Assembly: GCA_018263505.1 (NCBI GenBank)
Contig: JAANXA010000004.1
Span: forward strand, 1-45,074
DNA: 45,074 nt
Direction: 5' to 3'
Origin: Candidatus Nitrosopumilus sp.
Lineage (GTDB): Archaea > Thermoproteota > Nitrososphaeria > Nitrososphaerales > Nitrosopumilaceae
Positions 414-24,487 of the stretch are shown piece after piece. The notes under the pieces were generated by a model. That model ran no database searches. It saw only the letters and a list, made by a program, of their open reading frames with translations, and was not told the origin of the DNA. Positions within the stretch are counted from its first letter, which is position 1. Every line of letters begins with the position of its first letter. Position numbers and translations under genes: made by a program.

Positions 414-1982
414 TTGAAAAGTTTCATTTTATTTTCTGTTTTATTCTTTACAGCATTTTTTGTATTTGACAGTGTTCATGATAATGCATACGGTCATGGA
501 GTTGGAAGTGAAATATTTCCTCCTGTGGAATTAAATGGAAAACAGGTTGCTTTAGAAGTCTCATCTTCACAAAATGATCCTGAAACTAGTGATGATCAAC
601 AAATATCAATTTCATTAATTGATTTTGATTCAAAAATAACTTTACGTGATGTAACCTTTCTAATAACTTCTCATCGTGGTGATACATTTTTGTTTGAAAA
701 AGAATTCAAAGCAGATAATGGATTTGTTGTTTTTAATTTTATTTCAAAAGACACTGATTCAGTAATTATTGAAGAACAAAATGATTCAAATCTATTTGGT
801 TCATTGCTCGGACTTGATAGTAGATTAGTTAATGTTTCAGGACCAAAACTAAGTGAAGGTGGATTATACAAATTGGATATTAGTATAATTACAGCTGAAG
901 GATATTCCAAAAAATTTGATGATCCATTAATTTTCAATGCTGGTATATCTATTGCTCAAACAACAAGACACAATATTGTTGATCCAAATTTTGGGGAACA
1001 ATACATAGATGTTGTAACATTTTATGACGAAATCAGTGACTTTCAATATGATAGTTCCACCAAAGAAACTTCTTTTTTCATGCCTTTTGAGTGGACTCAG
1101 ACAAATATTGATCAAACATCTGTAGTTCATGAAGAACTAATAATTCCAGAATCATTTGGAGATATGCTAGTTTCAGGATTTACAATATATGTTAATGATT
1201 TACAATTATCTGATGATATTGTAACAATTGATGATTTTTTCTCAGAACAACGAACTGTTCATTTTATAATTTATCAAAAAGAATTACAGAGAATTTTTGA
1301 TACCAATTCTAATCAAAATGGAATGAATTTTGTAATTACACCTGATAGAGATTATACTCATTTGAGTTCTGTTACTGAAAATGGACAGTTTAGAATTTTA
1401 GTTTCGTGGGATCCTGAAAATTTAAAATCAAATGATAAAGCAAAAATTATTTTTGATGTAACTGACATCTTTTTGAAAAATAGACCTATTGCCACACCTT
1501 ACGAATTTTCTATCACTCAAAATGAACAAGTAATTTTTGAACAAAACGGAATCAGTTCCGATTCAAAAGAGAATCCTAATGTTGCAGAATTTTTTGTTCC
1601 TAAAGACATTTCTGGTGTTATTAATTTGAATTTTAATAATTTGGATAACAATAACCTTGCAAAAACTGCAATTCCTATTGTTATAGATAGAGTGGTACCC
1701 CAAAATGATATTTCTATTCCATCCTGGATCAAAAACAATGCTGGTTGGTGGTCAAGTGATGATATCGATGATGAGACCTTTGTACGTGGAATTGAATATT
1801 TGGTAAAAAATCAAATCATTTCAACTTCATCAACTGCTCAAGGTTCAGGGTCAGGTTCTGATGAAATCCCAGCTTGGATCAAAAACAATGCAGGCTGGTG
1901 GGCAGATGGTTCCATTGATGATGAAACTTTTGTAAATGGAATTGAATATCTAGTGGAATATGGCATAATTCGAATTAACTAA
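414..1982 (+). CDS. Exported protein with two C-terminal WIKNNAGWW modules
   Basis: The frame is open from 321, but the first 31 codons overlap the gene at 206-412 and look non-coding. Starting at TTG 414 gives 522 residues with a clean signal peptide: MKSF, then a hydrophobic run, then residues around AYGHG. The middle is rich in beta-strand-like sequence with many Asp, Asn and Ser. The last 110 residues carry two modules, IPSWIKNNAGWWSSDD and IPAWIKNNAGWWADGS, joined by a Gly/Ser linker. It is probably anchored or released at the cell surface. It meets the minus-strand gene at 1979 tail to tail with a 4-bp overlap. No enzymatic motif is visible, and the function is unknown. Confidence 0.85.
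   Translation: MKSFILFSVLFFTAFFVFDSVHDNAYGHGVGSEIFPPVELNGKQVALEVSSSQNDPETSDDQQISISLIDFDSKITLRDVTFLITSHRGDTFLFEKEFKADNGFVVFNFISKDTDSVIIEEQNDSNLFGSLLGLDSRLVNVSGPKLSEGGLYKLDISIITAEGYSKKFDDPLIFNAGISIAQTTRHNIVDPNFGEQYIDVVTFYDEISDFQYDSSTKETSFFMPFEWTQTNIDQTSVVHEELIIPESFGDMLVSGFTIYVNDLQLSDDIVTIDDFFSEQRTVHFIIYQKELQRIFDTNSNQNGMNFVITPDRDYTHLSSVTENGQFRILVSWDPENLKSNDKAKIIFDVTDIFLKNRPIATPYEFSITQNEQVIFEQNGISSDSKENPNVAEFFVPKDISGVINLNFNNLDNNNLAKTAIPIVIDRVVPQNDISIPSWIKNNAGWWSSDDIDDETFVRGIEYLVKNQIISTSSTAQGSGSGSDEIPAWIKNNAGWWADGSIDDETFVNGIEYLVEYGIIRIN
1839..1923 (+). repeat. 85-bp direct repeat, copy 2
   Basis: This is the second copy of the module-coding repeat at 26-110. It differs at three positions (GCT/GAT in the linker, AAT/AAC and GGC/GGT). 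Confidence 0.85.
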
Positions 1983-2290
1983 TCTTCATCAACATAGTCA
2001 TCTTCTTCAAGTATCTGATTTGCTATTTTGTCAACTTCACTTTCTTCATCATCTTCAATCCCCAAAATCTCTTCAAGATACTCTTTTGCCTCATTGATGT
2101 TATCAAGAAAATACTGAGCGATGTCAGGATAATTCTCAAATGTATCTTCTGCACCGCTAGTAATATTTCCCCTTCCTCCAATGTCTTGCTCCATTACATC
2201 TTTGCCATCGGTAAAGTCAACGTCTCTGTATAGTGCTTCTTCGTTCAAACGTGTTCCACAACACGGACATCTTGCTCGAATTTTTAACAT
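1979..2290 (-). CDS. Small acidic protein with N-terminal CPCC zinc knuckle, 103 aa
   Basis: The N-terminus reads MLKIRARCPCCGTRLNEEAL, a cysteine knuckle (C8, C10, C11) that could hold zinc, perhaps as a dimer. The C-terminal half is highly acidic and ends EEDDYVDED. A 16-bp perfect palindrome at 2303-2318 lies where a leaderless transcript would have its TATA box, so the gene may be repressed there. It is convergent with the exported protein at 414-1982. I do not recognise a named family, and a nucleic-acid or metal-handling role would only be a guess. Confidence 0.75.
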   Translation of the reverse strand: MLKIRARCPCCGTRLNEEALYRDVDFTDGKDVMEQDIGGRGNITSGAEDTFENYPDIAQYFLDNINEAKEYLEEILGIEDDEESEVDKIANQILEEDDYVDED

Positions 2291-2302
2291 TATTTAGTAT
2301 AA

Positions 2303-2318
2303 TTTAGGCATGCCTAAA
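2303..2318. promoter_or_regulatory. Perfect 16-bp palindrome, candidate operator
   Basis: TTTAGGCATGCCTAAA is a perfect inverted repeat 13-28 bp upstream of the minus-strand start at 2290. It covers the expected TATA position. The half-site TTAGG resembles those bound by DtxR/MntR-family metal regulators, but that assignment is inference. Confidence 0.55.
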
Positions 2319-2335
2319 TCCTTTTTGTGATTCTA

Positions 2336-2505
2336 TTTGAACAAATGAACAATCATTTGAACGATTTTGATTCTATTTGAACAAAAATACACTTGGTTTG
2401 AACGATTTTGATTCTATTTGAACAAAAATACACTTGGTTTGAACGATTTTGATTCTATTTGAACAAAAATACACTTGGTTTGAACGATTTTGGTTTTACT
2501 TGAAT
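2336..2505. repeat. Phased array of TTTGAAC heptamers (three 41-bp tandem units plus flanks)
   Basis: TTTGAAC starts at 2336, 2356, 2376, 2397, 2417, 2438, 2458 and 2479, with a degenerate copy (CTTGAAT) at 2499. Spacing is 20 or 21 bp throughout, two helical turns, so all sites face the same side of the helix. Three identical 41-bp units lie at 2356-2396, 2397-2437 and 2438-2478. The array ends about 115 bp before the HTH/coiled-coil gene at 2621. It resembles iterons, a centromere-like partition site or a multi-site operator. The rest of this 330-bp gap (2291-2620) holds the palindrome at 2303 and a TTAAAAT box at 2592-2598, 26 bp before the TTG at 2621. Confidence 0.9.
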
Positions 2506-2620
2506 GATTTGGAAAATCACTGAAATCATGTCAATATTATCACATTTACCTTATTTTTGAATCAAATTTTGAAAAAAAATTGGAGGTTGACTTAAAATCT
2601 TCAAACGACTATGATTTGTA

Positions 2621-3898
2621 TTGCCAACAGAAATTACAGAAAAAACAAAATCTGAAATCATTTACTATCTACTTTCAGGGTATAGTTATTCTGAAATCAT
2701 TGATTCAATTAAAACATCAAAGGGTACTATCACAAAAGTTGTACAAGAGTTAGACCTGATTCATGGAAAAAATAACATTGATTTGTTACTATCATTTGCA
2801 AAATCTCTCAAAAAAGAACAACTAACACCTCCTCAAACATTAATTGGCATTAGAATCCATTCCATCTTAAAATCATTGAATTGCAATGAGGAATATGTCC
2901 AAGAATTTTTAGATAAAATAGTATCTAAATGCAAATCTCAAAATCTTTCCCCCGATGATTTAGTGAGATATTCAACAATGCTCTTTGAGTTATCCCAATT
3001 AACAGATATTCCATTAGAAAAACTAGAGAGTCATAATTCCTCATTAATTCAAAAAAACAAATCACTTAATGATTCCATTATACAATTAAACAAAGAGAAA
3101 AAAGAAGTAAAGAAAAGACTAGATGATGCATTACACCATGAAAATACAACTATTCAATCATTAAATGAATTCAGTAATATCAAAAAAAGACTAGGGGAGT
3201 TTAACATAGACATTGGTGATTTGGATTTACTTGTATCAATGTTAAAGGAATCATCCAGATTAGACTTTGATCCTCACAAAGTGATACAATACATCAAAAA
3301 AGAATCCTCCTTTGAGACTCGAATTGATTTATTACAAAAAGACATTGATAAAATGGATAATACTGTACAACAAAAACAAAACGAATTGACTAGAATTCAA
3401 AGTGATATTGATGAGTTAAAACTACAAAAAGAACAATTGATATCACAAAATGATTCTTTACAGGAACAAATCAAATTCTCAAAAGATACTACACTATCTA
3501 CCATCACTAAAATCAAAGATTCTTCTGTATCTGCCATTGATTTGTCTGCAAAAGCAGCAAAAGATTCCATTGTATCAACTAATGATACTGCTCAAAAAGA
3601 GATGAAAATCATTACTGATACTGCAAAAAGTAACTTTGAAGAAATTACAACAGACTTTGAATCACTACTATCCAAGGTATCTCAAGCATCAACTGAAATT
3701 GGAAAGATGCAGGCATTAATACCGCTATATCTGATGATCACACAACTCAAAGGAGACACAATTCCTGTGTACATCAGTTTGCTATCCATGTTTGATTCAT
3801 TACTAATTTGGGAAAAAACTCATCATGCACCAATTGGAGTGGTGAATCATATCAATTATTTACAGAATATTTTACGAGAATATCTTGCAAAGCAATAA
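2621..3898 (+). CDS. HTH and long coiled-coil protein of unknown function, 425 aa
   Basis: Residues 8-42 look like a helix-turn-helix (SGYSYSEIIDSIKTSKGTIT, then KVVQEL). Residues about 130-185 and 230-290 are strongly heptad-like coiled coil, and about 290-345 is an Ala/Thr/Ser-rich amphipathic helix. The C-terminal 75 residues are more globular (QALIPLYLMIT). No Walker motif, transposase or recombinase residues are visible. The start is TTG; no ATG is in frame upstream, and a TTAAAAT box lies 26 bp before it. The gene directly follows the TTTGAAC array and overlaps the next ORF by 14 bp. A DNA-binding, array-recognising role is inferred from HTH plus context. Resemblance to a partition or chromosome-organising protein is speculative. 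Confidence 0.8.
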   Translation: MPTEITEKTKSEIIYYLLSGYSYSEIIDSIKTSKGTITKVVQELDLIHGKNNIDLLLSFAKSLKKEQLTPPQTLIGIRIHSILKSLNCNEEYVQEFLDKIVSKCKSQNLSPDDLVRYSTMLFELSQLTDIPLEKLESHNSSLIQKNKSLNDSIIQLNKEKKEVKKRLDDALHHENTTIQSLNEFSNIKKRLGEFNIDIGDLDLLVSMLKESSRLDFDPHKVIQYIKKESSFETRIDLLQKDIDKMDNTVQQKQNELTRIQSDIDELKLQKEQLISQNDSLQEQIKFSKDTTLSTITKIKDSSVSAIDLSAKAAKDSIVSTNDTAQKEMKIITDTAKSNFEEITTDFESLLSKVSQASTEIGKMQALIPLYLMITQLKGDTIPVYISLLSMFDSLLIWEKTHHAPIGVVNHINYLQNILREYLAKQ

Positions 3899-4283
3899 TT
3901 CTGTAGATGAATTGATTCATCTTGCAAATGATGCTAATACTACTCTAACTCAAAATGCAAGAAAAATAGTTTTAGATATTTTGCATCAAGGTACTACATC
4001 TAACACCAGTAATCTGGATAAAATTTTATCACTTGGGAAATATTTTGGTGATGAAACAATTAAACAAATCGGAACTAACAAGGTTCATCAAATCACTCAA
4101 AATGAACAAAAAAGCAAAGAACTATCTGATAAAGTATCTCAATGTATCTCAAAAATTAACCAAATGTCATATGATTCATTGATTATAGTACTTGAGCAAT
4201 ACTCTATTGGAGGAGTGGAATCTGCAACAAACTACATTCAGACTGATACAAGAATAATTAAAACAAAAAGAATCACTGGTTAA
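3885..4283 (+). CDS. Uncharacterised helical protein, partner of the HTH/coiled-coil gene, 132 aa
   Basis: The TTG at 3885 gives 132 residues and overlaps the upstream gene by 14 bp; a TTG at about 3910 (giving MIHLANDANTT) is an alternative. The overlap implies translational coupling. The sequence is predicted to be mostly helical (NARKIVLDILHQG, NKVHQITQNEQKSKEL) with a basic tail ending KTKRITG. I see no cysteines, membrane segments or catalytic motif. By position it is likely to act with the HTH/coiled-coil protein, but no family is recognised. Confidence 0.7.
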   Translation: MQSNNSVDELIHLANDANTTLTQNARKIVLDILHQGTTSNTSNLDKILSLGKYFGDETIKQIGTNKVHQITQNEQKSKELSDKVSQCISKINQMSYDSLIIVLEQYSIGGVESATNYIQTDTRIIKTKRITG

Positions 4284-4390
4284 AACTTTCATTTCATTGC
4301 GATAACTACAACTGTTACATGTACGTGTGGAATGGGTGTATCTGCATCCAATAATCTTATTATACAAATTTCAATGATTAAACATAACTA

Positions 4391-24178: not shown

Positions 24179-24487
24179 TTGTCATATAGCTTATTTGGCC
24201 AAGTAATAGGCGTTAGAAAATTTGCAAACGGTGATGTTGAAATTGATTTCTATAATGATGATAAAATTACTGAATGTAGATATTCTTCTGATATTGGTAG
24301 ATTGGGAAATTTTCCTAAAGAATTGATTGAAACTTTAGCTTCTACATTAGCTTCTGATATTTGTGTTGAAATTTTTTTTAGTGATGATGGAAATCCTACA
24401 CATATTGAATTAGAAGAATGTGGTGAAGATGACGAAGATGACGAAGATGACGAAGAATTTGAAGATGACGAAGATGAAACAGAATAA
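24179..24487 (+). CDS. Small acidic-tailed protein, 102 aa
   Basis: The TTG start lies 2 bp after the hemerythrin stop. The N-terminal 75 residues look like a small beta-rich fold (SLFGQVIGVRKFANGDVEID), and the last 25 residues are almost only Asp and Glu, encoded by a simple GACGAAGAT-type repeat. I do not recognise a family. The tight spacing links it to the hemerythrin-like protein. Confidence 0.7.
   Translation: MSYSLFGQVIGVRKFANGDVEIDFYNDDKITECRYSSDIGRLGNFPKELIETLASTLASDICVEIFFSDDGNPTHIELEECGEDDEDDEDDEEFEDDEDETE

Follow-up and report, generated by a model that had tools for sequence, protein, structure and literature searches.

What does a phased array of short DNA repeats do beside a gene for a helix-turn-helix (HTH)/coiled-coil protein in an ammonia-oxidising archaeon, and does the pair regulate a promoter, start replication or hold and organise DNA? 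Segregation and organisation of chromosomes and mobile elements are little known in these archaea, and the locus offers a defined pair of protein and DNA that can be tested and has many natural variants. The locus lies in a 45,074-nucleotide stretch of a Candidatus Nitrosopumilus genome, here called the window. An initial annotation had described eight exact TTTGAAC sites and one degenerate site, in one orientation and with 20-21 bp phasing, and this was confirmed at 2336-2505, all on the + strand. The exact sites (2336..2485) start at 2336, 2356, 2376, 2397, 2417, 2438, 2458 and 2479, giving spacings of 20, 20, 21, 20, 21, 20 and 21 bp; the degenerate CTTGAAT (2499..2505) is in phase with them, and TRF reported a 41-bp unit repeated 4.3 times across 2328-2504. 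The heptamer alone was not enriched (19 in the window against 20.8 expected), and the longest in-phase chain was 8, compared with 2 in each of 40 Markov shuffles. The improbable feature of the array is its phasing rather than the number of heptamers. Across the whole genome the triple-site pattern occurred 14 times and the reversed control did not occur. A CRISPR was ruled out, since what repeats is a heptamer and its spacers are both too short and too similar to one another, and an Rfam search returned nothing beyond a sub-threshold chance match.

Downstream of the array, a 425-aa protein (2621..3898, + strand) with an N-terminal tetrahelical (LuxR/NarL-like) HTH, a helical region and long coiled coils is encoded, which is the probable array-binding protein. 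Its ORF starts with TTG, and the M-P start aligns with ATG-started homologues. The gene for a 132-aa all-helical partner (3885..4283, + strand) overlaps it by 14 bp. Both ORFs had been annotated in this arrangement and were confirmed, and the overlap is also present in the other partner-bearing loci. The AlphaFold2 model of the HTH protein showed the HTH in helices at residues 7-48 and long helices at 132-173, 218-286 and 293-364. The HTH domain was modelled with confidence (mean pLDDT about 90 across residues 11-60); for the whole protein the mean pLDDT was 77.9 and the pTM 0.31, a value that makes the overall domain arrangement in the model unreliable. The partner model was all helical (pLDDT 72.5). 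The best Foldseek matches of the N-terminus were LuxR/NarL folds (DosR, VpsT, probability 0.93-0.97) and MarR types, none of them at E<0.001. No specific family was found for the HTH gene or the partner in PHROGs, NCBIfam or the Pfam matches listed; among the matches listed in a Pfam scan, ten family members gave generic HTH and coiled-coil models only, and when the family profile was searched against the sequences of solved structures, nothing but coiled-coil noise was obtained. The orthologues in the window and in genome G072 have a common recognition-helix segment, TSKGTITKVV, and a common heptamer, TTTGAAC. A second family member of G072 has a different recognition helix and TTTGACG sites.

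On the other side of the array are two parts absent from the initial annotation, an 18-bp perfect palindrome (ATTTAGGCATGCCTAAAT, 2302..2319) and a divergent gene (1979..2290, - strand) for a 103-aa Cys-rich (CPCC) protein. Cys-rich gene, palindrome, array, HTH gene and partner form a cassette (approximately 1983..4350) between a 553-aa gene and a rhomboid gene. In the close relative G005 (rhomboid protein 98% identical) the cassette is absent, as it is in others, and ~87 bp separate the 553-aa gene from the rhomboid gene; the two genes are likewise adjacent in G013. The cassette recurs in G072 in the same region, where the Cys-rich orthologue occupies the same place and the HTH protein is 78% identical to that of the window, and G001 has an array at the cassette site with the partner reduced to remnants. 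The window cassette is accessory, and its patchy presence could reflect gain or loss. It contains no integrase, and inspection of its junctions by eye revealed no target duplication or terminal repeat. GCATGC-centred palindromes (AAATACGCATGCGTATTT) accompany the other array copies, including solo ones.

The link between array and gene was tested across the family using upstream DNA of 84 family genes, 79 of which had at least 1 kb upstream. The density of TTTGAC in the 84 genes was 10.5/kb at 0-100 bp upstream against 0-0.64/kb beyond 300 bp, and that of the reversed motif was 0.38/kb. A TTTGAC-type site was present within 200 bp upstream in 55 of the 79 loci, compared with 5 of 79 at -800 to -1000, and the 79 loci held 138 proximal and 5 distal sites (sign test, p about 2e-13, a nominal value because related loci are not fully independent). 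The motif had been picked after some of the tested loci had been seen, and the window itself adds nothing to the test because its motif is TTTGAAC. Distances between same-strand TTTGAC pairs peaked at 9, 11, 12, 21, 22, 33 and 44 bp. This family-wide concentration of phased sites just upstream of the genes makes array binding by the HTH protein, and autoregulation, likely. The association behind the initial proposal that the HTH protein binds the array therefore stands, and from it we infer the binding. The further expectation that an array always precedes the homologues holds only in part: TTTGAC was absent from the proximal 200 bp in 24 of the 79 loci, including the integrase-linked genes of G102, G064 and G081. 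In two integrase-linked members lacking TTTGAC, the region upstream of the operon contains TTTAG-type repeats at distances of 20 or 42 bp, which may be chance.

An unbiased scan of 14 genomes for three close TTTGAC sites revealed 11 distinct arrays, eight of them directly upstream of a family gene (in G211 the family gene is a short weak fragment) and two of the remaining three located 3' of nuoN (G043 and G127). Independent extremes just upstream of a family gene were 11 copies of the 11-bp TTTGAACAGTA in G119 and nine of the 11-bp GTCAAACCCTG in G043, both in another family. Of the genomes that the triple-site pattern scan also matched (G119, G027, G037 and G062), G119 alone has its array next to a family gene, and the other matches look like unrelated coding or chance repeats. 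Since the heptamer differs among members (TTTGAAC, TTTGCAC, TTTGACG, TTTGACC), recognition can be read from their comparison.

A rival explanation is a plain autoregulated transcription factor that uses the array to repress or activate the operon encoding it, along with a small number of targets, and has no role in DNA maintenance. Archaeal autoregulators often bind their own promoter, and arrays cluster most tightly at family-gene promoters. In agreement with such a role, the copies examined in family f8 are mostly solo, with no detectable partner or integrase, and look like ordinary chromosomal genes. On the other hand, up to 17 phased copies together with long coiled coils exceed the needs of a simple repressor, and several solo arrays lie away from promoters (trxA/tfb, and 3' of nuoN in G043 and G127). 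We regard this explanation as possible, but doubtful.

Solo arrays allow autoregulation to be separated from action at a distance. A DNA search of the genome of the window (G000) found three to four solo array copies beyond that of the window: on contig C24, where a Cys-rich gene paralogous to that of the window lies downstream of the array; on C21, 3' of amoB; on C68, 3' of a tfb gene; and at the end of C14. The assemblies are drafts in which contig ends fall within arrays, and C14 and C68 are probably parts of a single trxA-array-tfb locus, joined as the contig ends of G005 are by a 43-base overlap. The trxA/tfb array occupies the gap between convergent genes, and its tfb-linked copy carries an inverted site pair on the opposite side of the palindrome. 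Comparison of G000 with G005 showed the five TTGAAC sites of this array to be identical at 30/30 bases and the spacers at 45/64 (Fisher p = 3e-4). Sites were kept while spacers drifted, indicating selection on the sites. The nuoN-linked arrays of the two species occupy matching positions, also in convergent gaps, in another family than that of the window, and no family HTH gene was found near them. The location of solo arrays in convergent gaps argues against a purely promoter role, and the presence of the same motif in solo arrays elsewhere in the genome supports the action at multiple sites that had been suggested from the window. Arrays are also retained in G001 and G005, in whose incomplete assemblies no cognate HTH orthologue was found.

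Several features of these copies were recorded in passing. The C21 copy, a solo palindrome plus phased array (L008:1020-1260), immediately follows the 3' end of amoB, which is a core gene of ammonia oxidation, and is about 96% identical to the tfb-linked copy. On C24 the paralogous Cys-rich gene is followed by a gene for a small 125-aa protein, Toprim-like by eye (L007:436-813). The arrays immediately 3' of nuoN are of an 11-bp TTTGAC type, with four copies in G043 (L285:2923-2961) and 17 in G127 (L286:3855-4036). G001 has three array copies (L092, L093, L094) in which TTTGCAC replaces TTTGAAC at 20-21 bp spacing, a concerted motif change; they have the same palindrome and decayed neighbour genes.

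Alternatively, the dispersed arrays could be what remains of decayed cassettes or of a small mobile repeat, and only the promoter copy would have a function today. The G001 arrays have degenerate Cys-rich genes and remnants of the partner next to them, which would fit such decay, and in G000 recent copying is suggested by the amoB- and tfb-linked copies, which are 96% identical. This explanation is nevertheless unlikely, considering that sites were selectively conserved over spacers at the tfb-linked copy, that the amoB and tfb copies have no cassette-gene remnants next to them, and that similar solo arrays are present 3' of nuoN in another family.

Within this archaeal order the HTH/coiled-coil family is widespread: a profile built from ten members was positive in 65 of 300 genomes, and many f8 genomes had at least five matches to the family. 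Beyond the order, matches across the phylum mostly covered the coiled coil only and were treated as compositional, and a few (G509, G351, G506) included the HTH. In the genus of the window the HTH gene is followed by the overlapping helical partner, and the pair is usually near tyrosine integrases, as it is in G102, G064, G081 and G099. The initial annotation had noted that no Walker ATPase is present at the locus, and this holds for the window cassette, which encodes no Walker-type ParA/SegA ATPase; in G102 a ParA-type ATPase (AAA_31, E = 1.5e-28) lies downstream of the pair in the same direction, the only ParA found beside such a pair. Neither viral contigs nor phages yielded a confirmed relative of the window protein, nor did plasmids yield one of the G102 homologue, so that an origin from a described virus or plasmid is unsupported. 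Two small integrated elements (L099:4221-9963 and L101:189-4585) were seen to consist of an integrase, an unknown ORF of ~360 aa, a Cys-rich gene, the HTH/coiled-coil gene and the partner, and they adjoin the same geranylgeranyl-reductase-like gene in two species. It is very improbable that the array is an iteron-type, perhaps relict, replication origin at which the HTH protein serves as the initiator for an integrative element, despite the direct repeats with an adjacent palindrome, the AT-rich, element-like context and the integrases in relatives, given that neither the HTH protein and its partner nor the other cassette genes have a Rep-type, initiator, helicase or primase domain among the matches listed, that there are several array copies per 1.4-Mb genome, and that multiple family matches are common in f8 genomes.

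Our preferred reading, with a probability of roughly 0.5, is that the cassette is an autoregulated, repeat-binding module for DNA maintenance or organisation, and that it is an archaeal analogue rather than a demonstrated homologue of KfrA and pSK1 Par. The HTH/coiled-coil protein would bind the phased TTTGAAC array and dimerise or multimerise there. Since the sites are two helical turns apart, the bound dimers would line one face of the DNA, and the coiled-coil tails and the helical partner could tie them together. Binding at its own promoter would autoregulate the operon, as the position of the array suggests. The protein probably also occupies the distant solo arrays, an action to which the conserved sites and the location of the trxA/tfb and nuoN arrays in convergent gaps point, and by oligomerising it may help to hold, organise or segregate the DNA that carries them. 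An integrative element is the probable source of the module, which now resides in the chromosome. DNA binding, oligomerisation, autoregulation, the maintenance function and the direction of transfer are what we infer from these comparisons, and a part in segregation is put forward as a hypothesis. The integrase-bearing elements and the single ParA neighbour in relatives are circumstantial and fit a maintenance role. Against the reading stand the family loci that lack a proximal TTTGAC site, the ordinary-looking f8 copies, the occurrence of ParA beside one pair only, the LuxR/NarL-like type of the HTH, and the arrays kept in G001 and G005.

Among known systems, the best functional parallel is KfrA of plasmid RA3, followed by pSK1 Par and RocS. 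KfrA proteins (RA3 IncU, IncP-1) likewise have an N-terminal HTH and a long alpha-helical coiled-coil tail, KfrA of RA3 has five 9-bp direct repeats at its own promoter that resemble the promoter-side array of the window, and a separate helical partner, KfrC, corresponds to the 132-aa protein; KfrA also contacts ParA/ParB (PMC7783346, PMC7821693). The AlphaFold2 model of the window protein has this order of HTH and long coiled-coil tail, and the sequence arrangement in the window and the family places short direct repeats at the gene's own promoter. Unlike KfrA, the present family is archaeal, its heptamers are 11-12 or 20-21 bp apart, the partner gene overlaps downstream and most copies are chromosomal; no KfrA model appeared among the matches listed in the Pfam scan of the window protein and nine relatives. 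In pSK1 Par, RocS and RacA the HTH also precedes the coiled coil, and pSK1 Par achieves segregation without a dedicated NTPase (PMC11500499). These proteins, however, have a MerR-type winged HTH, and Par and RocS also DUF536, whereas the window protein is LuxR/NarL-like, and DUF536 was absent from the Pfam matches listed for family members. Since membership in the KfrA or the pSK1 Par/RocS group was not supported by profile or fold tests, we say that the module works like these systems, not that it is one of them.

In SegAB and AspA-ParB-ParA, too, a site-specific DNA-binding protein acts on sites upstream of its own operon (PMC5120986), but these systems use palindromic sites and a ParA-type ATPase in the operon, in place of the phased direct repeats without ATPase of the window. 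Tyrosine-integrase elements like the integrated mobile elements of Thaumarchaeota here also host several HTH/coiled-coil and partner pairs; the text of the survey of those elements mentions no coiled-coil proteins and names ParB-like proteins instead (PMC6563490). The open-access literature searched contained no published description of this pairing of protein and array in the order. More tentatively, the family as a whole could represent a centromere or chromosome-organising system of archaea that works without an ATPase, a large group of rapidly diverging LuxR-type-HTH coiled-coil proteins, each with its own helically phased heptamer array, which would act in trans on solo arrays at gene ends and be spread by integrative elements.

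Elsewhere in the window, at 24425-24485, acidic coding repeats (GAAGATGAC) form the low-complexity tail of a 102-aa ORF.
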